64,000 nt of DNA from Elephas maximus indicus (lineage: Eukaryota; Chordata; Mammalia; Proboscidea; Elephantidae), in contig NC_064821.1 in the NCBI RefSeq assembly GCF_024166365.1, forward strand, positions 52,417,093-52,481,092, written 5' to 3'. The notes under the pieces were generated by a model. That model saw only the letters and a program-made list of their open reading frames with translations. It made no database searches and was not told the DNA's origin. Position numbers and translations under genes: made by a program. Shown piece after piece: positions 597 to 56,741 of this stretch (positions are counted from its first letter, which is position 1; each line of letters begins with the position of its first letter).

Positions 597-1180
597 CTGT
601 CTTAGTTTCTTAATGCTGCTGCAACAGAAATACCACACATGGGTGCGTTTCACGAACAGAAATTTGTTTTCTCACTGTTAGGAGGCTAAATCCAAAAAAA
701 AAAAAAAAAACCCAAACCCCTTGCCGTCAAGTCGATTCCGGCTCATAGCAACCCTATAAGACAGAGTAGAACTGCCCCATAGAGTTTTCAAGGAGTGCCT
801 GATGGATTTGAACTGCTGACCTTTTGGTTAGCAGCTGTAGGTCTTAACCACCAGGGTTTCCACTAGGAGGCTAGAAGTGCGAATTCAGGGCACCAGCTCT
901 AGAGGAAGGCTTTCTCTCTCTGTCAGCTCTGTCTCAGCTTCTGTTCCTTGGTGATCTTCATGTGATGTGCGTTGTCCTCTCTGTTTGTGATTCCTTCTCT
1001 GTGCCTGATCAGCTTGGTTTATATCTCAAAGGTGGTTGGGTTAAGAACATCCTACACTGGTATGGTACATTAACATAACAAATAAAGTCCTATTCCCAAA
1101 TGGGATTACATCCACAGGCATAGGAGTTTAGGATTTACAACACATATTTTGGGGGGCACAATTCGATCTGTAACACATTC
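597..1180 (-). mobile_element. LTR-like interspersed repeat, copy 1
   Basis: On the minus strand it starts GAATTGTGCCCCCCAAAATA and ends GGTATTTCTGTTGCAGCAGC...CTAAGACAG, resembling a MaLR-type LTR. It shares both ends with copies at 12821 and 51391. An AfroSINE splits it at 690-863. Family name not assigned. Confidence 0.6.
690..863 (-). mobile_element. AfroSINE, GGAGCCCTGG form
   Basis: Typical 3' end (GTTGCCGTCGAGTCGATTCCGA-like) after an A-run. Perfect duplication TAGGAGGCTA at 680-689 and 864-873. Confidence 0.92.
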
Positions 1181-1268: not shown

Positions 1269-1482
1269 GGAGCCCTGGTAGGTCAGTGGTTAAAGCACTT
1301 GACTGCTAACCAAAGGTCAGTGGTTCAAATCTACCAGCTGCTCATGGGAGAAAGATGTGGCAGTCTGCTTCCGTAAAGATTACAGCCTTAGAAATCCTGT
1401 GGGGCAGTTCTACTCTGTCCTATAGGTTTGCTATGAGTCAGAATTGACTCCACGGCAATGTTACTATTATTACTATTATTTT
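1269..1482 (+). mobile_element. AfroSINE with internal extension
   Basis: GGAGCCCTGGTAGG head, then an added segment (AGATGTGGCAGTCTG...TACAGCC) before the common CTGTGGGGCAGTTCTAC body. ATT-repeat tail. Confidence 0.88.
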
Positions 1483-25500: not shown

Positions 25501-25657
25501 CAAAACCAAAAACCAAACCTGCTGCCATCGAGTCGATTCCGACTCATAGCGACCCTATTGGGCAGAGGAGAACCACCCCATAGGGTTTCTGGTGGATTTG
25601 AACTGCTGACCTTTTGGTTAGCATCCAAGCTCTTAACCACTGTGCCAGCAGGGCTCC
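25501..25657 (-). mobile_element. AfroSINE abutting another SINE
   Basis: Near-consensus CTGCCATCGAGTCGATTCCG. Perfect 12-bp duplication GTACCAGACATT at 25489-25500 and 25658-25669. Confidence 0.94.
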
Positions 25658-26407: not shown

Positions 26408-26492
26408 CTATGTTCGCCCTTTAAAAGTGTTCATGCAGGTGTAGGTTCCTGAGAATCTGTGGATCTCCTCGAGGGCAGCCTGGGGGAGTATG
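26408..26492 (-). CDS. DHRS3: DHRS3 coding exon 6 (last, with stop)
   Basis: This exon carries 85 coding nt: one base completing the split serine, 27 codons ([15 protein letters not shown] to MNTFKGRT) and TAG at 26410-26408. The acceptor is CCCCAG. It supplies residues 275-302. The upstream polypyrimidine tract is C/T-rich. Intron 5 is about 2.7 kb. Confidence 0.95.
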
Positions 26493-29400
26493 CTGGGGAG
26501 TGGGAGGGAGGAAGGGAGACGGTCAGCAGGAGGGACGAGCAGCCAGATGCTGGTGGCCACAGGAGGTGGGGCAGTGGAGCGAGGTTTCCCATAAGCGCTC
26601 CCTACCCCTATACTCCCCTCCAAGTCACACACCAGCTTCCCTCCCACAAGCCACCCCCAGTCCCTGCACGGCAGAAGGGCTTTCAAGTAAGTGGAAAAGC
26701 AGCTGCTTATAAGGTAAAGGGTGGTAGGAACAAACTTCCAAAGCCACATTCTTAGCATTTTTAGGGCCCATAAGTATGTCCAAGATAAATCAACTCCAAC
26801 CTCCACCTATTCAACAAGTATTTACCGTGTGGGACTGTGGAGACAGTACAACTGGGGTCACTTCCTTCAGGGAAGCTCCCCAGATCTCTCCTTTGTGCTC
26901 CCCAGAGCCACTGCGCTTCCCATCAAGACCTGGTATTGTCTTTGCCTGTTTACCTGCTAAGCCTGCGGGGGCCTTAGAGGCACGTATTTCATCTCTGACC
27001 CTGGGCCTAGTACAGGGCCTGGCATGAGAGGGCCCTCAGTGTATTTGTTGAATGAAATTGAAGGTCCGTGGCCTGTTGTAGGCACAAGACGGGAAAGGTT
27101 CATTTCCAGTGGAGCAATCTGGAAGCCCCAGCACTAGAGCTGAGCCTCTAAGGATTTCTCCTGAGGAAGGTGAGGAGAGGGCACAGAGCTGGGAATGAGA
27201 AGGGAATAGTCTCTGTTTCCTGTGGGCAAGTAGTGGGGTCAGGACAGGAGATGTAGGCTCGGGTCTCCCTGTGGAGAGTGCTGAGATGTTCTAGACAAAC
27301 TAGTGTTTATCTAGAATGTTCTGAGAAGCTTCTAAACAGCTCCCTGGACGTGCAGCTGGGCCTCAGTTAGGGCAGGAGTCCCTGCTCACCCAGGGAGATT
27401 CACTGAGGCAGCCAAGGAGCGCCTCAGAACAATGGTCAGGGTGGACCGAGGGCAGCTGGGAGTGTCCCAATGCCCCAGTACCCTCTCCAGCCCTCTGCTT
27501 TGGGTCTGCGAAAGGGCTTTGAGTTTGGAGGAGAAAGGACCGAATGATGTTATCCCCTCGTTTACAAGGTTTCCTGTGCCCACTGACTGCTGGAGCGGTT
27601 CCTTGCTGTGTTCATGGCAGCCAGAGGGGAACTCGGGCTTCCTGGACATCAACGTTTGATAAAAGCAGGGACCAGCCTGGAATCTGGGTGCTTCACTTCC
27701 TGAAAAAGCCTTCCAGGTCAAAGGGTTTAGTCAGTTGGGAGCCAGGGTCTGAAGATGGACAGAGACCCAGAAGAGCCAAGAGTCCACGGTCACTTCATGG
27801 CCCCTGGACAAAGCTCTCAGAGTCCCTGGGTGATGCAAATAGTTAATGTACTCAGTTGCTAAATGAAGGGTTCAAGTCCACCCAGAGGCACCTTGGAAGA
27901 AGGGCTTAGTGATCTATTTCTGAAACGGAGCTATTGAAAACCCTATGAAGCACAGTTCTACTCTGGCACACATGGGGTTGCCATGAATTGGAGTGGACTC
28001 AACAACTGGCTTTTTTTTTTTTTATTATATAAGAAGCCCATGGAGCCCTTGAGGCAAAGTGGTTAAGAGCTTGGCCGCTAACCAAAACATTGGCAGTTCA
28101 AATCTACCAGCTGCTCCTTGGAAACCCTATGGCGCAGTCCTACTCTGTCCTATAGGGTCGCTATGAGTCTGCACACAACAACAACAAGAAGCCCATGAAA
28201 CCTGTGCTTAAGCAACACCTAGAATAGCTCCTTCAGGATGGGGGTGCCGAAACAAAGCCTGGAAGGTTTTAGGGGAATATGATGCTGGGCAAATTCTGGA
28301 GAAGGGCCATCTCCATCAAGCCAACATCTGAGAAAGTCTGCCCTGGTAAGCCCTGCCCAACTCCCACCCGACCACAGCTGAATGAATCTTACTGTGACAT
28401 TTCTGTGAATCCTAAGCCTTTGGCATCGAGATCCCTGTCTTCCCCATTAGATTAAGCCTCCTGAGGGCTCGGGCTGTGTCTTCTAATCTCTAGAATAGCA
28501 GCTCTCAAAGTGGTCCAGGAACCTCTGGGGGTACCTGACAATTTTTCATGGGTCTGCAAGGTCAAAAGTATCTTTCTAACAATACTAAGCCATTATTTCC
28601 CTTTTTCCCCCTTGGTCTCTCATGGGTGTACAGTGGAGTTTTCTAGAGGGCACTTGATACATGACATCACAACAGACTGAAATCAGAAGCAGATACAAGA
28701 ATCCTGCTACCTTCCATTAAGCCAAGCAATAAAGAGATTTGCAAAAATGTAAAACTATGCCACTCTTCTCACTACATTTATTTCGTTTTGCAAAAGGTAA
28801 TTACTTTTCACAAAACAATACTGAATGTATGTTAACATGTAGAGAGTTTGTTATTGTTCTTTTTAAATAACTAAATATTTCTTAATATGAACAAATGTAT
28901 AAATATTTGTAAAATTTTTCTCAGTTTTAATTTTTCATATAGTAATTAGTGATAGATACAAGTCACATAAACAAACGCTCTTTGGGTTCCTCAACAATTT
29001 TTAAGACTGTAAAGAGGTCCTGAGACCGAAAAATTTGAGAGCTACTGGCCTAGAGTAAGGATAGTGAATCCATGGCAGACACGCTTCCACCCCTCATTCT
29101 CATGCCCACAGCAGACATGACTAACCAATTACATGTCTACTTTCTATCCACCTGCTGCCTCTTCTCCACCAGGGGAAGTGGTTGGCAGAAGCTGGACCCT
29201 GCACTTTCTCGCCAGCTCCATACCTTTTCAAGATAATGAGGGCATGCATCGTCCACGGAAGCAGGAGTAGGGCCTGGTTGAGCTGCACAGCTTCCACCGT
29301 CCTCCGGGCCACCGTCTCAGGCTTCAGCGGGGGGAAGAGGTTGGGAAACCTGAAAGCAGAAAGAGACATGGTGGGTTTCTGCTAGAGAAGAGAGTGCTTC

Positions 29401-32400: not shown

Positions 32401-35400
32401 AAGATGTTTATCATTAGTAAAAATAAGAAAGGCAGCAGCTATTTATCAAGCATCTAGAATGTCCTGGGCTTTGTGTTAGATGCATTACTTGTATTATTTC
32501 CAATTCTCCCAATAATCTTCCCCCCAAAAAAAAAAAAATCCTATGACGTAAATATTATTTCTACCATTTTTCAGATAAGCAAAGTAAAGCTCAGAGAGGT
32601 AATAAAACCAGCCCAAGTTCTCACAATTAAAGAGTAGCTGAGGTGTGATTCAAAATGAGGTAGTTTTGATTCTCAAACACCAAAGCCACACCAGTCCTTT
32701 TAATAAGAAGTAAAGTGTACTGTCGGAAACCCTGGTGGTGTAGTGGTTAAGAGTGATGGCTACTCAACAGAAGGTCAGCAGTTCAAATCCACCAGGCACT
32801 CCGTGGAAACCCTACGGGGCAGTTCTACTCTGTCCTTTAGTGTCTCAATGAGTCGGAATTGACTCCATGGCAACAGAGTTAGTTGTTTTGGAAAGTGTAC
32901 TGTGTGGTTACCACATGCCCCTACTATGCTAATCACCTTCCATGAATGGTCTCATAGAACCCCTGATGACCTGATCAGGTACACACTCTTCTCACCCTCA
33001 TTTTTGAAAGGAGAAATTGAAGCATATACTTAAGAAAGCAAATCTATCACTAACTCATGTGTTGCATTGCAAAAACCAAGGAAAAGGAGTTTTTGGAGAA
33101 TTCCCCATTTTCATTTATTTTTTTTTAATAGCCATAGGCCCCTTTGTGATGGCACACAATTGTAGCACCATTTATTGATACAGGGACTATGTATCAAGTA
33201 CTGTGCTGAGTGCTTTTGTATGGGATCTCATTTTACTCTCACTACCTATGATGTGAACATTCTCATCATTCAGTTTTACGAACAAGCAAAGGAGGTCAGT
33301 GTGGTAACTGACCTGACCCCAGGTCACAAAGTGCACCATAGGTACAAGGGTGAGCTTTCACCCCAGGTGCCTTGCTCCAAAGTATGTATTCTAAATCAGT
33401 AGTCCCCATTCCTGGTTGCACCTAAGAGATGCTGATTTAAATTCGTCTGGGGAAAAGAGTGGAGCCCAAAAGGTCAGCAGCTCAAATCCACCAGATGCTC
33501 CTTGGAAACCCTATGGAGCAGTTCTATTCTGTCCTATAGGGTTGCTATGAGTTGGAATTGACTTGCCAGCAATGGGTTTTTTGTTTGTTTGTTTGGGGAA
33601 AAGGGTGGTTGAGTCTTGGTATTTCTTGAAATTGAGCTATAATTTGTGTTCAATAAAAGGCATAAATCTGAAGTTTACTGCTTGATTAATTTTTACCTAT
33701 GTAACCACCACCTAGATCAAGAAGAGAGAACATTTCTAAAAGCCTAGGAAGTACCTTGGTGTCCCCTCCCAGGCTGCATCCCCACCCCTCTAGGCATAAA
33801 ATAAGGTGTAGTGTTCTGTTTTGTATCACCATAGCCTAGTTTTGCCTGTTCTAGAACTTCATATAAATGGATTCATGCAGAATGTGCTCTTTTGTCTCTG
33901 ACTTCTTTTGGTCAATATAATCTTTTTGAAACTCACCCATGTTGCTCATGTATCAATAGTTTGTTCTCTTTTTATTGTTGTATAGTATTCTACTGCATGC
34001 ATATAGCATTGTATTTTGTAAAAGTTCCCTGAATTGAGACGCAGGACCTTAAACAGCCATAGTATGCTACTGCCTTGTAGATGGAGAATCAGATATGAGA
34101 CTGCAAAGCCAAAGATAAAGGGCTTCTGGGTCATTTGTGGAGTCCCTGGGTGGTACAAACAGTTAACGTGCTCAGCTACTAACTAAAAGGTTGGAGGTTT
34201 GAGTCCATCCAGAGGCTCCTCAGAAGAAAGGTCTCATGATCTAATTCCAAAAAATCAGCCATTGAAAGCCCCATGGAGCACAGTTATACTCTGACACACA
34301 TGGTGTTACCACGGATCCGTGCTGACTCAACGGCGAGTGATTTGGTCTTCGCTTGGGTCATTTTTATATTTTAGCTACCTCTGTGCATGAGACGCTTCTC
34401 CACTGGTTCGGTCAGCTGGCTGGGCTAGGCGTAGGGGAGCCGGGTGAGGAGGCCTGTCCCTGAAGGCAGGGGAGAGCGGTTCTGGTCACTGACCTGACCC
34501 TCATGCCCTGGAACATCTCGGTGCTGGTGTGGAAGGGCAGCACGGTGGTGGCACTGACGCCGGGACAGTCCAGTAGCCCCAGGGTCAGGCTCTCCATGAA
34601 GGCGAAGGCTGAGGCTTTGGATGTGCAATAGTCGATGGCGCCAGGGATGGCAGACAGCGCCAGCACAGAATTGAGGCACACGATGTGGCCGTTCTGCAGC
34701 TCCAGCATGCGCGGCAAGAAGGCTTTGGTGGTCTGAAGGTGGAGGGAAGGTCAGTGTGGAGCAGCCACAGCTCCCAACAACCCCTCTACCCCTTCTTCAG
34801 GGACAGCAGACCACCCTGGATACCACAACTCCACCAGAGATGGAGGCTTCCCAGGAGAGGAGGTGGGCTAAGGGCTCTCTGGTGTGGGACACTGTGCTCC
34901 ACATTTCATAAGGTCATTCCACCTGTCTGGGCACCTTGTCCTTGGATATTCTTGCCTGCATGAACTCAACCCTGGTGAGCCTCTCCCTCCTTCCCCTCCC
35001 CCTTGCCCAGGCTCTCGGAGGCATATGGGTGGGAACGTGTCATTGTCACACCCAGGGGTGGCTCTGACACAGGACAGCCCTTACCCAGAACTGGCCCAGG
35101 GTGTTGATATGCTGGGACTTAAGGAGGGCGTCATCGTCGCTGTCCATCAGGCTCCTCCCGTGGACCACGGCAGCATTGTTCACCAGAATGGTGATGTCGC
35201 CCACCTGTGGACGAGACGGCACCACAGGGCTGTTAGGGCTGCTAGCCCTAGTCCAGGGGCAGGGACTCGGCCCCACCACTCATGGGCAGCGTGGTCCTCA
35301 AAAACTACCTTGCTGCTGTAAGCATCAGTCTTTATTTGTAAGATGGGGCTAATAACCCTGCCAGCGCTGTTCTGAGGATAAGAAACAGTTTATGGCATAT

Positions 35401-36011
35401 AACATACCTGGCACATAACACACTTACAATAAATAAGGTTACAGTTACATAAAAACAGTTAGCATTTACCATGCACCAGATACTTAATAGGGTGGTTTGT
35501 GTTCCCTTGGAGCTCACTGACATACTCCATCAAATAAATGGCTGGAGTTAGGATACTCTTTGTCCCAGAGGGCAAGGGAACATTTGCCCCAGTGTCTAGG
35601 AAAGAAACCTGTAACTTCTATACTTTCAACGGGAGAATGGACAACAACTGATACTCAGTAATCAAGCCACATCCCTAACCCCTGCACCTCAAAACACGTA
35701 CACACAGCCAGAGCCAGCTTCATGGGAGAGACCCTGCAGGCACCCTGGATAAAGCTGTTCTGTCAGCTTTCTGCAAAGCTCTTTTCCAAGTTGCCTGAGA
35801 ATGTTCTCTTTGCCTGACAGTGCCCACATCCAACTAAGCTGAGGACAAAGCCTCCCAGGCCACCTACCTTCTCCCGGACAGCTTTGGCTGTCTGGTATAC
35901 CTCCTCCCGGTTGCCCACGTCGCAGATGAAGTAGTGGCACTCTGTGCCCATCTGCCGGATCTCCTCCGTTGTCTCCTTCAGGCATTTCTCAGTCCGGCCC
36001 CATAGGACAAT
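26408..36011 (-). CDS. DHRS3: DHRS3, retinal short-chain dehydrogenase/reductase, exons 2-6 (5'-incomplete gene)
   Basis: This is a five-exon coding join on the minus strand: 36011-35868, 35204-35085, 34732-34494, 29349-29224 and 26492-26408. Together they give 714 nt, or 237 codons plus TAG. I recognise the product as DHRS3, an NADPH-dependent SDR that reduces all-trans-retinal to retinol at the ER or lipid-droplet membrane and partners with RDH10 (family knowledge). Every intron begins GT and ends AG, and phase is kept throughout. Assuming the usual 65-residue exon 1, the residues seen fall at NNA (122-124), Ser175, Tyr188 and Lys192 (YxxxK), the SDR catalytic set. The first exon, carrying the hydrophobic N-terminus and the glycine-rich cofactor motif, is not visible in this window. 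No frameshift or stop was seen, so the gene looks functional. Confidence 0.96.
27819..28025 (+). mobile_element. AfroSINE, GGAGTCCCTGG form
   Basis: AGAGTCCCTGGGTGATGCAA head, CCACCCAGAGGCACC and GGAGTGGACTCAACAACTGG end, T-rich tail. Confidence 0.9.
28043..28185 (+). mobile_element. AfroSINE with CAACAA tail
   Basis: GAGCCCTTGAGGCAAAG head. Tail ACACAACAACAACA instead of GGTTT. Perfect 12-bp duplication AAGAAGCCCATG at 28031-28042 and 28186-28197. Confidence 0.94.
28498..29049. mobile_element. Nonautonomous hAT (MER1-type) DNA transposon
   Basis: Terminal inverted repeats CAGCTCTCAAA and its complement in TTTGAGAGCTACTG. Flanking 8-mers CTAGAATA/CTAGAGTA match at 7 of 8. AT-rich interior of about 550 bp. 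Confidence 0.8.
29224..29349 (-). CDS. DHRS3: DHRS3 coding exon 5
   Basis: This exon is 126 nt. It starts with one base completing the arginine codon and ends with two bases (AG) of a serine codon. The acceptor is TTTCAG and the donor GTATGG. It encodes [16 protein letters not shown] through MHALIILK, residues 234-274, the substrate-side C-terminal region including a hydrophobic LLLLPW stretch. Intron 4, between this exon and exon 4, is about 5.1 kb and full of repeats. Confidence 0.95.
29636..30130 (+). mobile_element. L2 LINE fragment
   Basis: AGATTGTATCGCTGCCCTGC, CTCAGGGCCTTTTACCAGC and GGTGCTCAGTAAACACTTAC are L2 3'-region hallmarks in order. Confidence 0.8.
31165..31375 (+). mobile_element. 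MIR SINE
   Basis: AGCTGTGTGGCCTTAGGCAA, CTCTGAGCCTTGGTTCCATC and CTTGTGGGGTTGATGTGAGG. Confidence 0.82.
31630..31830 (-). mobile_element. MIR SINE
   Basis: TAGATGAGGAAACAGACGCA and AACTTGCCCAAGGTCACAAA, reversed core. Confidence 0.8.
32073..32247 (-). mobile_element. AfroSINE
   Basis: A-tail then AGTGCCGTCGAGTCGATTCT. Perfect 12-bp duplication TGGAACATTCAT at 32061-32072 and 32248-32259. Confidence 0.95.
32430..32700 (-). mobile_element. MIR SINE
   Basis: GCAGCTATTTATCAAGCATC, TTTTCAGATAAGCAAAGTAA and CTCAGAGAGGTAATAAAACC. Confidence 0.78.
32724..32891 (+). mobile_element. AfroSINE
   Basis: GGAAACCCTGGTGGTGTAGT head. Perfect 12-bp duplication AAAGTGTACTGT at 32712-32723 and 32892-32903. 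Confidence 0.95.
33160..33395 (-). mobile_element. MIR SINE
   Basis: CATTTATTGATACAGGGACT, GTACTGTGCTGAGTGCTTTT and ATCTCATTTTACTCTCACTA. Confidence 0.7.
33463..33594 (+). mobile_element. AfroSINE with internal deletion of the A-box region
   Basis: The head GAGCCC jumps straight to CAAAAGGTCAGCAG, losing the CTGGTGG...GCTAAC part. Duplication GGGGAAAAG[A/G]GTGG at 33449-33462 and 33595-33608. Confidence 0.92.
33615..34015 (-). mobile_element. Old L1 3' fragment
   Basis: AGATCAAGAAGAGAGAACAT and TTCTTTTGGTCAATATAATC blocks. Reversed translation contains [13 protein letters not shown], the L1 ORF2 C-terminal phrase. Confidence 0.7.
34137..34353 (+). mobile_element. AfroSINE, GGAGTCCCTGG form
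   Basis: GGAGTCCCTGGGTGGTACAA head and GCTGACTCAACGGCGAGTGA end. Duplication TGGGTCATTT at 34127-34136 and 34354-34363. Confidence 0.93.
34494..34732 (-). CDS. DHRS3: DHRS3 coding exon 4 (catalytic exon)
   Basis: This exon is 239 nt, entering in phase 0 and leaving with two bases (AG) of a split arginine codon. The acceptor is CTTCAG and the donor GTCAGT. It begins [10 protein letters not shown] and contains the active-site Ser175 in LNSVLAL and YCTSK with Tyr188 and Lys192 (numbering assumes a 65-residue exon 1). It is the key evidence that the enzyme is catalytically intact. It ends with MFQGMRV plus the split codon. Confidence 0.96.
34733..35084 (-). other. DHRS3: DHRS3 intron 3
   Basis: 352 bp, donor GTAAGG, acceptor CTTCAG. 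No repeat recognised. Confidence 0.93.
35085..35204 (-). CDS. DHRS3: DHRS3 coding exon 3
   Basis: This exon is 120 nt (40 codons, phase 0). The acceptor is CCACAG and the donor GTAAGG. It starts [16 protein letters not shown] and ends NTLGQFW, residues 114-153. It carries the SDR NNA motif that stabilises the central sheet of the Rossmann fold. It sits only 662 bp from exon 2 and 352 bp from exon 4, forming a compact exon cluster. Confidence 0.95.
35205..35867 (-). other. DHRS3: DHRS3 intron 2
   Basis: 663 bp, donor GTAGGT, acceptor CCACAG. The middle (about 35.33-35.52 kb) is MIR-like (CATAACATACCTGGCACATA). Otherwise no feature. Confidence 0.93.
35868..36011 (-). CDS. DHRS3: DHRS3 coding exon 2
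   Basis: This exon is 144 nt (48 codons, phase 0 at both ends). It is preceded by a pyrimidine-rich tract ending CCCAG and followed by a GTAGGT donor. It starts [10 protein letters not shown] and ends AVREK, corresponding to residues 66-113. This is the second strand and helix of the Rossmann fold, with the cofactor-discriminating arginine in WGRTE and the conserved CDVGN acidic turn. The upstream intron 1 runs to the end of the window. Confidence 0.95.
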
Positions 36012-36604
36012 CTGGGAGAAGACAATAACAGCACCCAACAGGTGGTCATTAAGAAAGCCACCATGATACAATGTCATCATCAGAATCAGTATTCAAAGTC
36101 ATTTGTCCAAAGACTGCCCTCCTTGATTCCATCCAAAGATCAAGTATGCGAAGCAAATCAGCAATATGGTTTTTTAGAGATTCATAGCCTACTCTTAAGT
36201 GAACCAATAGTTCTAAGCCCACAGCCCTTCCAGCAGGATGCCTGCTGCTGGCCCAACTCCAGTTATCCTATGTGTTTGGAAGCAATAGCAGAGCTGTTTC
36301 TGTATCACAGAGATTCTCACTTGCGAACCACCTGACCTTCTCACCAATTAGCTCCAGAGCCACATTCATTCACACCGTTAGGATAAGCTGAGAGGTTCCA
36401 GCCATCAGGCCCACGGATGCTGCCTGGAGCCTTGGACCTAGCTTTGATCATACTCCAAAGGCAGGCCAAAAGAGAGGCATCTAGGCTCCATGGAGAAGAT
36501 GCCACTCTCCCACAGAGCAGGTAATAGATGCGGGGCTCATTATGCCAAGAGGGGATCTTGTTAAGACCAGTAAATGGATTTTAAAAGGGTCTGGGCAAAT
36601 TTAT

Positions 36605-39340: not shown

Positions 39341-39499
39341 CAAACCCGAAACCCATTGTTGTCCAGTCTATTCTGACCCACAGTGACCCTACAGAACAGA
39401 GAACTGCCTCACAGGGTTTCCAAGGTGCAGCTGGTGGATTTGAACTGCCGGCCTTTTGGTTAGCAGGCGAGCTCTTACCCACTGCGCCACCAGGGCTCC
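39341..39499 (-). mobile_element. AfroSINE
   Basis: CCATTGTTGTCCAGTCTATT start and CACTGCGCCACCAGGGCTCC end. Confidence 0.92.
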
Positions 39500-40079: not shown

Positions 40080-40960
40080 ATGGGTGCCCTGATGTCCCCA
40101 GGGAGCTGTGCTGGACACATCTGTCTTTTTTTTTTTTGGCACATCTGTCTTTGATAGCTGCTCCACCAGTGGCATGTTGCTGGTCACTGGTGGCTGCAGG
40201 GACAGTCCTGGCTGCAGCCCTCCCTTGGCCATCACAGGCCACACCCAGTGCCCTGCCTGAGGGAGCCAGCTGGTAGAGGAGATGGGAGCCCTCCTGGTCA
40301 TTGATGCCCAGCAGGAGTTGCTCCAGCCACTGTTTCTTCCTGGCTTCCCCTCCTCCCTCAGTCCTCCCTTCCTCAACCCCTCTGGTGAACCCCAGAGTTT
40401 TGCAGGAAACTGTGGCAGGGACAGGTCAGCAGGCCAGCCCAGGTGGCTCTTGCCCAGGATGACCTGGAGGTGACCCCTGACAGCTGACAGGACAAGAGTC
40501 CCACCCAGGCCAGGATGAGGGTGAGAACAGAGCAGGCCCGAGGCCAGGGGGTCTGAATGGAGTGTGGGGCCAAGGAGCCGGGCGGGATGAGGAGATTTAC
40601 AACCTCAGAAGCTAATACGGCCACTGTTTAATTAACTCCCAGGACAAGGAGCAGCTGGAGAGGGTCAGGGCGCAGGGATTTACTCCTAAACTGGGTTTAT
40701 AAAAGAAGGGCGGGGGTGGCTGATGCCTCTGGCCTCCCCTCCCCTCTGGGCAAATGGTTAGCTTCTGCCCCTGCCCCTCCTGTGATGGGCAGCGAGGGGA
40801 GAAATACCCCTGTCCTCCAAGGAGCCCACACCTGCCATGGGCTACCTGCCCAGCCACGGCCTCTTCTCAGCCAAAGGCCTGGCGCTGCCGCCTGTCCCCC
40901 AGAGCTGCCCTCGAAGCAGCTCCGGCAAGCCTGACCTCCCAGCAACCCTAACCACTATGG
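40080..40960. other. Unique intronic block around the DR5 motif
   Basis: No repeat recognised. Besides the DR5 at 40460 it has TTTAATTAACTCC near 40630, TTTATAAAAG near 40695 with GGGCGGGGG following, and several half-site-like TGAC motifs (40460-40490). It looks like a regulatory region. Conservation cannot be judged from one sequence. Confidence 0.5.
40460..40476 (-). promoter_or_regulatory. Candidate DR5 retinoic acid response element in DHRS3 intron 1
   Basis: On the gene strand it reads GGGTCA-CCTCC-AGGTCA. This is an exact match to the RGKTCA-N5-RGKTCA consensus bound by RAR/RXR heterodimers. It lies in sequence I do not recognise as a repeat (40.08-40.96 kb), about 4.4 kb upstream of exon 2. 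DHRS3 is known to be induced by retinoic acid. Function at this site is inferred. Confidence 0.55.
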
Positions 40961-47685: not shown

Positions 47686-48140
47686 TGTATAATATGTAGG
47701 TGGCCAAAAGTGCACAGAAGGAAAAAGAAGCTTCGCAAGGGGGCTGGATGGCACGATCATGGGGTGAGAGCAGTATTTAGATGGGGCGGGGGAGGGCAGG
47801 AGTGAGCTCTGCAGGTATCTGGGGAAAGAGCATTCCAGGCTGAGAGAACAGCAAGTGCAAAGGCTCTTAGGTGGCAGTGAGCTTGAGGGGCAGCAAGGTG
47901 GTGCTGAAGGAGACAAAGTAGAAATGAGTTCTCTTGCCAGTAGACGGGATGCCTTTTGGTGGTGGTGGTGGGGTTGTGAGCAGAGAAATGGCAGGCTTGG
48001 AATGGGGTGGGGAGCAATGTACCTGATAGTTGGAGGTAGCTGGGCTGGGGCACTGGGTGGGGGGCGGGGGAGGTAGGCTCAGGACAGCTGCAGGATTGGA
48101 TGCTGGCTGACAGAGAAACAGGGAACAAAGAGAAGTCAAA

Positions 48141-48351
48141 GGAGCTCTAGTGGCAAAATGGTTAAGTGCTCAGCAGCTAACCTAAAGGTCTGCTGTTCGA
48201 ACCTACCTAGCGGCTCAATGGGAGAAAAGACCTGCCATCTGCTTTGGTAAACCCTATGGGGCATAAAAAAAAAAAAAAAAAATTTTTTTTTATGGGGCAG
48301 TTCCACTTTGTCACATATTGTTGTTATGAGTCTCGGCACACAACAACAACA
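48141..48351 (+). mobile_element. AfroSINE with A/T-run insertion and CAACAA tail
   Basis: GGAGCTCTAGTGGCAAAATG head. The body phrase TATGGGGCA occurs on both sides of a 30-bp A/T block (48256-48295). Ends GGCACACAACAACAACAAA. Confidence 0.9.
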
Positions 48352-48559
48352 AAGTGGACTCAAACGGTGTGACCTGAGAAAACTGAGCCCCAGCGACTTC
48401 CTCTCCAGGGCAGGTTAGCAGCTGCCAGTCCCAGGTATAAGCGCAAGTGTCTTAGATCCCCAGGTCCCTCCAGCTTCCAGAACAGTCAGGGCTGGCAAAG
48501 GCAGGGGGAGGGGTGGCGGTGTGTGAGAAAATAGTTCCAGGTGGCAAAGGCAGCCTCCC

Positions 48560-49720
48560 TAGGAAGAGGGTGCCTGGCCACGGGCCAAAGAGGCCAGCTA
48601 CCCACCTAGCGCCGCGTTTGTAAACACATCGGTTTCCAATAACAAAGTGGCGGGCCGTCCCAGCCCGGCCCTGACAGTAATGAGCTGCAGCCCCGCGCGC
48701 GGGAGGCCAGTCTGCGCTCACATGACGGGGTGAGGGGGTGGCAGGAGGAGCCGCTGCCGAAACCTCGGCGGGCCCGGCAGGAGGCTCCAGGAAGTCTTTC
48801 GGAAAGTGGGCCCGGGGTGGCGGAGGGTGGGGCTAGGGCGGGAGTGGGGTTGGGCCAGGTCCTGGGTGGGGGCTGAGCTAGGATCCCATTTGGCGAATGG
48901 GAAGGGGGTGGGAGGTAGATAAGGGCCGCGGGGGGTCGGGCAGGACTGGGGTAGGAGAGGGAGGGGTTGGAGTCCCTGCAAAGGATGGAAGGGGAACCAG
49001 GTTAGGGTCCTGGGCAGGGGCTGTGGAGGGGGGCTGGGCTGGGGTCCCAGGCAGGGGAGGGGTAGGTACTGGGTAGGGGTAGGTTGGCAGAGTTGGGGAC
49101 TCTAGGGGAGTAGAGTTTAGAATCCCGGGTGGTGGTTGGGGCGGGGGGAGAGGGGCTGGGAGGTAGATGCAAGGGGAGGTCCCGGGCGCGGAAGAGGGTG
49201 TGCGGGTCTGGGGTCCCGGCAGAGAGGTCGGAGCGGAGCGAGTCTGGGGTCCCAGGGGAGGAAAGGGTGGGAGGTGGGAGGGTCTGAAGTCCCTCTCCCG
49301 CGCCGGCCCGCCCGCACTTCCTCCCGGGCGCGCGGTAAACAAACGCCATGATGTCAGGGCCGCTGACCCGCGGCTGAACCCAGAGCTGTAAATGAGATGC
49401 GAGGTGCCAGCAGCCTCCGGGCCGCACGGCCTGCCAGACACACACGCTCCTCCGCGCCGGCCTGAGGTTACCCCAGCTGCGCACACCGACAGGATGCTGC
49501 AAACGCCACCAGACATTGCAACACGCAGCCAGTCTGCTGGCCGCCGCGTGAACCGTCCCGACCGCCCGCCTCCGTCCCCCCCGCTGCAGGCACCGTCCCA
49601 GCTGGAGCGGCCGCGCATCCCGCGGCGCCGCCGTTCCCACCCCTCTGGGGCTGCGTCCCACCAGGGACCTCGCCCCCCAACCCAGGGGCCTGCAGACCCG
49701 AGGGCTGGGCGTCTGGGGTC
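48560..49720. promoter_or_regulatory. CpG island within DHRS3 intron 1
   Basis: CpG dinucleotides are dense here against a CpG-poor background, with clusters such as CGCGCGGG near 48.7 kb and GGGCGCGCGG near 49.33 kb. It also holds a CCAAT motif near 48.64 kb, G-rich boxes and the DR5 at 49364. No DHRS3 exon 1 reading frame is found in it. It may be an alternative or antisense promoter or an intragenic regulatory island. Confidence 0.7.
49364..49380 (-). promoter_or_regulatory. Candidate DR5 retinoic acid response element in intronic CpG island
   Basis: On the gene strand it reads GGTTCA-GCCGC-GGGTCA, another exact RGKTCA-N5-RGKTCA match. The first half-site is the same one used in the well-known RARB element. 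It sits inside the CpG island and has no repeat annotation that I can see. Receptor binding is inferred. Confidence 0.6.
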
Positions 49721-50756
49721 AGCTCCGGAATTCTGCTGAACACACTGGGGACAAACCTGAACTGGGCTTTCTGGGAAGCGCTTTCCAGTTCCCTCTTGCC
49801 CAGGGACCTCTTCAGCGAGGCGGGGATGCTGGAGGGCCTGCCTCCAGGTAGAACCAGATGCCAAAGTTTCCCGCTAGCCGCCCACCAGCCTCCATGCCCC
49901 CAAGCAGGGGCCACGTTTATTCCAAGAAGCTCCCACAGCTAAGCTCCCAGAGGAGCCCTGGACTGCGAGCCCTTGGCAGGGCCCTTTGGAATGAAAAGCT
50001 GCTGGACTCTGCTCTGTTGTTGATCTGCTGTGTGGCTTTTGGATGAGTCACTTGGCGTCTCTGGGCTTCCCCCATCCCCATGTGGGGACGAGGGGGGAGA
50101 ACTGAAACAGGCCATCCTGTGCTGGTGTGGGGACGGTCAAAAGTGCAAGGAAAGGTCACTGAGTTGAGAGGGTAAGCCTAATCTTCTAGAACTGGCACAG
50201 GAGGACTTTAAGATGCCCAGAGAAATCACAGCAGCCCCTCTCCTCACCCACCTGACCCCCAAACTCAGCCTTCTGGTTTACTGCCAGAAGCTGTGGCTCT
50301 GGGGGACTTAAGGGTAAATAGTCCCCTAGAAAGGAGAAAGCAGACCTGGGCCCAGGAGCCGCCCCCTACTGGCTCTCTTTCTTGGACCTCACTAACTTGG
50401 GTCTTCCCTGCCTTGTGGCTAAAAATAGGGGGGGTGGGAAACCTGTAAACTACTCCGGATCTTTACAAGTGACCCTTGTAGGGGACAGTTTAGCAAGGCA
50501 CAGTTTAGCACACACTGAAGCTAATATTTAAGTCACTCTCCCTCATATCACCCTACTTTATTATCTTTACAGTACTTTGTCACTATCTGAAATTATAATA
50601 GTTATTTGTTTGCTTGTTTATTGTCTAGCTGTCTATCCTTCCATCTCCTCCACACACACATTCTAGAATGTAGGCTCTCAGGCTAAATTCCCAGCACGCT
50701 TTTCAGTAACCAGGTGCCTGGTGAATGTTTGTTAAACACTGTTACCTCCCCTATGT
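49721..50756. other. Intronic sequence flanking the CpG island
   Basis: CpG density falls off quickly. No exon, repeat or ORF of note. Confidence 0.5.
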
Positions 50757-56119: not shown

Positions 56120-56741
56120 CTACACTATACTGGCTCCCGAAGAAAGAAAAAAGCCATACATGGGTGAATACACTCACACACCCACTGACTCAAAGACTTG
56201 GGTGGTGTCCCCAAAGCCAGGGCAATGAATCTGCCAGCCGAGAAGATGTGAGCCCCACTGACCCTGGGCCTCTGTTACCCCTGAAGCACCCCCACCTCCT
56301 TTGCTGTGTTCACAGGGGAGTGGCCTGGAGAGTGAAGTCAGAGTTACCCCCTCTGCCAAATGAGATGTGAGGACATGGGGTGTGGAAGCCAAGGGTGGAC
56401 TGACTCCAGGGGGTGTGTCTGGCAGGGCTGCCTGCCTGCAAGGAGGTCACGCTGCCCTTTGTGGTCACACTGGCCCCGGCTCCCCATGATGACCTGCTAC
56501 TGGACCTGTGGGAGAGGCCATGGTGTGCTGGGCCACCAGGCTGGGGTCAACTGGGTCCCTCTTGGTCCTGGACGTTCTAAAAAGAGACACTCTAGGGCTG
56601 AGAGCCCTGCCTTGGAAAGGAGCCGTACCAGTACTGTCCTGCTTGTGGGCCTGCAGCATGAGAGGAGGGGGAGCTGGCTTCTCACACCCAGCAAACATTA
56701 CTAGGAGCTAGCTTGAGGCTCCCTCCACTCTCCTGCCACCA
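56120..56741. other. Intronic sequence, no gene recognised
   Basis: GC-rich short ORFs in several frames. None is convincing. Confidence 0.5.

Follow-up and report, generated by a model that had tools for sequence, protein, structure and literature searches.

A candidate DR5 retinoic acid response element in a CpG-rich stretch of intron 1 of elephant DHRS3

DHRS3 and its first intron

The whole stretch of 64,000 nucleotides that was analysed, here called the window (C3:52417093-52481092 in a genome of 3.40 Gb and 64 contigs), contains exons 2-6 of DHRS3, which span 36014 to 26411 on the minus strand. These were located by tblastn at 93-98% identity, with a human DHRS3 protein as query. A search of the genome placed exon 1 beyond the window, with a counted identity of 50% that is lowered by unread bases (E 2.8e-11).

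71563-71366 (window coordinates, beyond the window), minus strand: DHRS3 exon 1, from the genome search
35856-36014, minus strand: DHRS3 exon 2 (approximate) and end of intron 1, from tblastn bounds and the sequence as read
35085-35213, minus strand: DHRS3 exon 3 (approximate), from tblastn
34493-34741, minus strand: DHRS3 exon 4 (approximate), from tblastn
29226-29351, minus strand: DHRS3 exon 5 (approximate), from tblastn
26411-26500, minus strand: coding part of DHRS3 exon 6 (approximate), from tblastn

Because exon 1 was found at 71563-71366, intron 1 is ~35.4 kb long by the tblastn bounds, and the DR5 motif at 49364-49380 lies ~22 kb inside it, with exon 1 ~22.0 kb and exon 2 ~13.3 kb away; the assignment of this motif to DHRS3 intron 1 in the preliminary description was thus correct. 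The Val110 codon of the elephant gene is 35.7 kb from the start codon, and arithmetic on published coordinates puts Val110 of human DHRS3 37.0 kb from the edge of a 5'-UTR deletion; by published variants, human intron 1 falls inside chr1:12,580,534-12,617,576. Two CpG islands, at 71061-71440 and 72081-72980, lie beside exon 1.

DHRS3 is described as a main brake on retinoic acid (RA) in embryos, and its deficiency as leading to a human RA embryopathy. That the gene is RA-induced, as had been claimed, holds for its orthologues in published work, which also reports RAR peaks at or near the gene. In mouse collecting-duct cells no validated RAR-dependent gene was reduced more strongly than Dhrs3, its induction by RA was observed in mouse neural differentiation, and an RA-dependent acetylation (H3K27ac) peak with a DR5 lies near it in mouse embryonic trunk. 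RAR peaks were found at dhrs3a in zebrafish endoderm, and likewise at or near DHRS3 in human THP-1 and squamous carcinoma cells. The passages concerned give no intron 1 position for these peaks or inductions, a literature search covering titles and the starts of abstracts found no intron 1 DR5 of DHRS3 named, and a 2022 review regards a functional RARE for DHRS3 as not yet demonstrated (sources for DHRS3, RA and RAREs, collectively: PMC8608873, PMC12774775, PMC8950952, PMC11959543, PMC3091300, PMC3634737, PMC3458940, PMC12753499, PMC10636885, PMC4197269).

Exact DR5 motifs and their expectation by chance

Two exact DR5s occur in the window, both of them in intron 1.

49364-49380, minus (gene) strand: exact DR5, GGTTCA-GCCGC-GGGTCA, from a pattern scan with 0 mismatches
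40460-40476, minus strand: second exact DR5, GGGTCA-CCTCC-AGGTCA, from the pattern scan and matrix score

The first had been claimed as an exact DR5 on the gene strand, and its sequence, coordinates and strand were all recovered by the scan. The minus strand reads GGTTCAGCCGCGGGTCA and fits RGKTCA-N5-RGKTCA exactly, with two RGKTCA half-sites in the same direction and 5 bases between them, in a gene whose RA response is that of its orthologues as given in papers. Spacer and junction together carry two CpGs. A 1400-base query (48601-50000) had itself as its sole match in the genome. A position within a repeat was not borne out, the 17-mer having a single exact copy in the 3.40 Gb genome by a search that skips very common words. 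Viral contigs, scanned once for the 22 bases beside the motif, gave no matches.

The second DR5 was absent from the preliminary description. It lies 8.9 kb from the first, contains no CpG, and a 500-base query around it likewise matched only itself in the genome. Both were scored with a matrix made from 11 distinct conserved DR5s (PMC7259794, Table 2, 12 rows with one repeated), leaving the spacer unscored. These 11 yardstick sites score 14.3-20.3, values that are flattered because the matrix was built from the same sites. The DR5 at 40460-40476 scores 19.6, which no other DR5 equals, whether in the window or across the 134 kb surrounding the gene, and it may share or do the regulatory work. 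The motif at 49364-49380 scores 16.3, which is inside the yardstick range; an inexact site at 56490 has the same score, and the two share second place in the window. The 3' half-site of the motif at 49364-49380 begins with G, as in just 1 of the 11 yardstick DR5s, the other 10 beginning with A.

This departure is one point in favour of a quite different reading, in which the 17-mer fits a permissive pattern by accident, with no effective receptor binding, and the surrounding island exists for other reasons, being left from an old promoter, a poised developmental element or a product of GC-biased conversion. Such a reading is a serious possibility, a little short of even and rated almost as probable as use of the site by RAR/RXR. 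The genome as a whole speaks for it: exact DR5s number 11,236 (6103 + 5133) against 11,268 for the reversed pattern, which is no excess, so that most DR5 matches presumably arose by chance, and an exact DR5 was rejected as good evidence by itself. Published counts of DR5s are 5,786 for human and 8,846 for mouse (PMC1785376). At the genome rate 0.21 exact DR5s are expected per 64 kb, with a probability of 0.019 for two or more, and dinucleotide shuffling of the window gave an expectation of 0.23, with 2 of 100 shuffles reaching the observed 2. The mean over the 40 other spacings in DR0-DR40 was 0.475 per spacing in the window, two of the 40 reached at least 2 (DR2 with 4, at least three of them inside SINEs, and DR34 with 2), and DR4, DR6, DR9 and DR12 occurred once each. 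By this control the pair of DR5s is unremarkable.

Against chance, a single intron of a strong RA target gene carries two exact DR5s, where the genome rate predicts 0.117 (nominal P 0.0063, uncorrected for the choice of region). The 134 kb around DHRS3 holds the same two, both in intron 1, for 0.44 expected (P for two or more 0.073), and 334 kb around the gene holds 5 for 1.10 expected (P 0.0055); all of these regions, the 64 kb included, were picked after the motif had been seen. The same applies to the stretch 48501-49750, for which a Markov model expects 0.0018 exact DR5s and which was singled out after the fact. A DR5 with the same CpG-rich CGC-GG junction occurs once genome-wide and 10 times in the reversed control; there is therefore no sign that CpG-rich DR5s are kept, and the rarity of this one is no signal.

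Several further motifs were seen in passing. Additional exact DR5s lie on the 3' side of DHRS3, at window coordinates -35848 (+), -125758 (+) and -148910 (-). An exact DR4 is found in intron 1 at 39374-39389 on the minus strand, and overlapping ER1/ER6 half-sites at 33309-33326 between exons 4 and 5. Elsewhere in the genome, what is likely a tandem array bearing the DR5 GGTTCAGGTTAGGGTCA on one strand extends over at least ~35.687-35.723 Mb of contig C1, with a period of mostly 1.94-1.98 kb among the matches listed, and may account for part of the strand imbalance of DR5s (6103 against 5133).

The intronic CpG island and the control of DHRS3

The DNA around the first DR5 is CpG-dense, in agreement with the preliminary description, and its composition is that of a CpG island, different from its surroundings.

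48501-49780, unstranded: intragenic CpG island in two adjoining blocks, 48501-48960 and 49041-49780, from a composition scan
49335-49356, unstranded: FOX core at 49335-49341 (minus) and CRE-like TGATGTCA at 49349-49356, from a word scan

The block 49041-49780, which holds the motif, has a GC content of 0.69, a CpG o/e of 0.67 and 59 CpGs, and the block 48501-48960 a GC content of 0.67, a CpG o/e of 0.60 and 28 CpGs. The words at 49335-49356, which we take to be a FOX core and a CRE-like element, are 22 and 7 bases respectively from the island DR5. Across 48501-49780 there were two FOX cores for 0.02 expected, one SOX core and one CRE-like word for 0.07 each, and one MEIS core for 0.46. GC boxes were at chance level (4 for 4.04), as was CCAAT (1 for 1.14); ETS words (0.45 expected), CTCF-like words (0.35), E2F words (0.05) and NRF1 words (0.03) were absent from the same interval, few ETS, E2F and NRF1 words being expected. 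The FOX and SOX excess is a mere lead because the words were chosen after the sequence was read, and the content would fit an island of enhancer type a little better than a promoter of housekeeping type.

The island had also been put forward as a possible alternative DHRS3 promoter, an idea that the analysis did not support. What is proposed is a tissue-specific promoter, giving a short DHRS3 or non-coding transcript, on which RAR/RXR would act. The composition of 48501-49780 is of the kind required, and mouse Dhrs3 has an intragenic CpG island of tissue-variable methylation, its location within the gene not being given (PMC7470969). That island belonged to a validation set taken from the ten pairs whose transcription went most closely with premature termination of the host transcripts. 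Brain, lung, heart and stomach differed in its methylation, and it was the only one of the set to vary between the tissues compared. The elephant island resembles these intragenic islands in being a CpG island within an intron. Against an alternative promoter stand the main exon 1 and its CpG islands at ~71-73 kb, the absence of any match to a strict splice-donor pattern on the gene strand over 48000-49900, the GC boxes at chance level and the missing NRF1, ETS and E2F words. In addition, according to PMC12167057 an alternatively spliced promoter of human DHRS3 has yet to be described, and in blood and in lymphoblastoid lines that have lost the main promoter, expression of the gene is reported to be 90-98% lower. 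A promoter within the island is considered very unlikely.

Other identities of the island were tried. It was rejected as the first exon or main promoter region of DHRS3, since both lie at ~71-73 kb. A coding island was not borne out, as no Pfam family was found in the 3 of its 11 listed ORFs that were scanned, nor was an Rfam RNA, there being none at the gathering threshold in 48001-50500.

In this species RA may control DHRS3 mainly through other elements, with the island DR5 redundant, an account that is compatible with the other readings and is judged improbable, but well above a mere outside chance. The elements in question would be the DR5 at 40460, promoter-proximal degenerate sites, or something more distant on the lines of the mouse DR5 pair. 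The first of these is the best-scoring DR5 of the window and of the 134 kb. For the others, two DR5s conserved to frog sit in a mouse H3K27ac peak that drops when RA is missing, and a conserved RAR:RXR DR5 has been predicted no more than 5 kb from the start of mouse Dhrs3. The pair, at chr4:145034810 and 145034847, reads GGGTCA-TTCCA-AGTTCA and GGTTCA-TCGGG-AGGGCA (PMC7259794), and is ~140 kb from a Dhrs3-linked H3K27me3 peak at chr4:144893360-144895562. It is credited to the same gene as the elephant candidate, from which it differs in sequence and place.

Searches of the elephant genome did not recover the mouse pair. The exact pair, in its printed order and orientation, was absent genome-wide, and no pair with up to 3 mismatches per site was present in the 334 kb around DHRS3, where the best pair at the mouse spacing had 12 mismatches in 34 positions. 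The first mouse site alone, at up to 1 mismatch, had 11 matches in the genome and none on the DHRS3 contig. Of the 334 kb, ~301 kb lie 3' of the start codon and 32 kb lie 5' of it; in mouse the pair is presumably 3' of Dhrs3, and it may have been missed here. Nor was there a strong counterpart of the DR5 predicted near the mouse start, the best matrix scores in the estimated region around the elephant start (67200-77200) being 11.8 for DR5, 12.1 for DR1 and 10.1 for DR2.

The site at 49364-49380 is tentatively regarded as a candidate DR5 RARE, part of a CpG-rich regulatory stretch within the DHRS3 intron, an assignment held with confidence just short of even. The motif is real and well placed, and a plausible candidate, but it is weak evidence alone since such words are common genome-wide. 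It resembles the RARB/Hoxa1-type DR5 (GGTTCA-CCGAA-AGTTCA, PMC7259794) in the GGTTCA 5' half-site, the spacing and the fit to RGKTCA, and differs in having GGGTCA rather than AGTTCA as its 3' half-site and in lying ~22 kb into an intron.

RXR/RAR exchange corepressors for coactivators when ligand arrives. Use of the island DR5 by RAR/RXR, in whatever tissue, is inferred, and each step from binding to RA response to feedback is put forward on the same footing. Without ligand, RXR/RAR on the DR5 would retain corepressor; with retinoic acid they would change to coactivator, and the intronic stretch would serve as an enhancer of the DHRS3 promoter ~22 kb off. The extra DHRS3 reductase would then convert retinaldehyde to retinol, and RA would drop.

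A more elaborate version, which makes the intron 1 island a retinoid sensor gated by methylation, is highly speculative and improbable. It is prompted by the two CpGs of the DR5 together with the tissue-variable methylation of the mouse Dhrs3 intragenic island, possibly another island. Only tissues without methylation of the island would allow RAR/RXR to use the DR5, the gain of RA feedback would thereby be set tissue by tissue, and the CpG-free DR5 at 40460 would be the ungated partner.

Two exact intronic DR5s, one of them in a CpG island, offer defined places at which to probe DHRS3 feedback. Should one of them be used, variants in that part of the intron would be candidates in RA-excess disease; if neither is, the case illustrates how little an exact DR5 alone tells. 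Varshosaz 2025 is said to be the likeliest paper to describe a DHRS3 RARE, and the intron 1 DR5s are already known if it names them.

DR2 motifs carried by SINEs

The DR2s of the window, borne largely by SINEs, constitute a larger finding than the island DR5.

809-822, minus strand: exact DR2 AGGTCAGCAGTTCA in a tRNA-like SINE, context read
25599-25612, minus strand: the same DR2 in a tRNA-like SINE, context read
32772-32785, plus strand: the same DR2 in a tRNA-like SINE, context read
1314-1327, plus strand: fourth exact DR2, AGGTCAGTGGTTCA, from the pattern scan

The SINE concerned looks, as we assume, afrotherian. Its DR2 word occurs genome-wide in 40,541 exact copies (20,035 + 20,506) against 3 in the reversed control, the SINE context having been seen in the window copies, and the general pattern RGKTCA-N2-RGKTCA in 72,916 against 9,807. 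DR1, with 12,022 against 10,686, is near its control, like DR5. A literature search on Afrotheria, SINEs and retinoic acid yielded, by titles and the starts of abstracts, nothing on a SINE DR2. Human Alu repeats are reported to have gained DR2s by CpG decay, with 108,582 DR2s in human against 26,717 in mouse (PMC1785376), and by analogy the elephant expansion looks like an independent one, convergent with the primate Alu-DR2. Among 83 SINE matches in the 334 kb, 57 had the full 14-base word, which was a consensus DR2 in 11 of the 57. CG, CA and TG forms were present at both CpG places of these words, as expected if CpG decay creates the DR2, and decay at the two sites seems, from the sequences, to be how the SINE DR2 is made. 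Words of the form AGGTCRGCRGTTCG occur 37,864 times genome-wide against 22 in the control.
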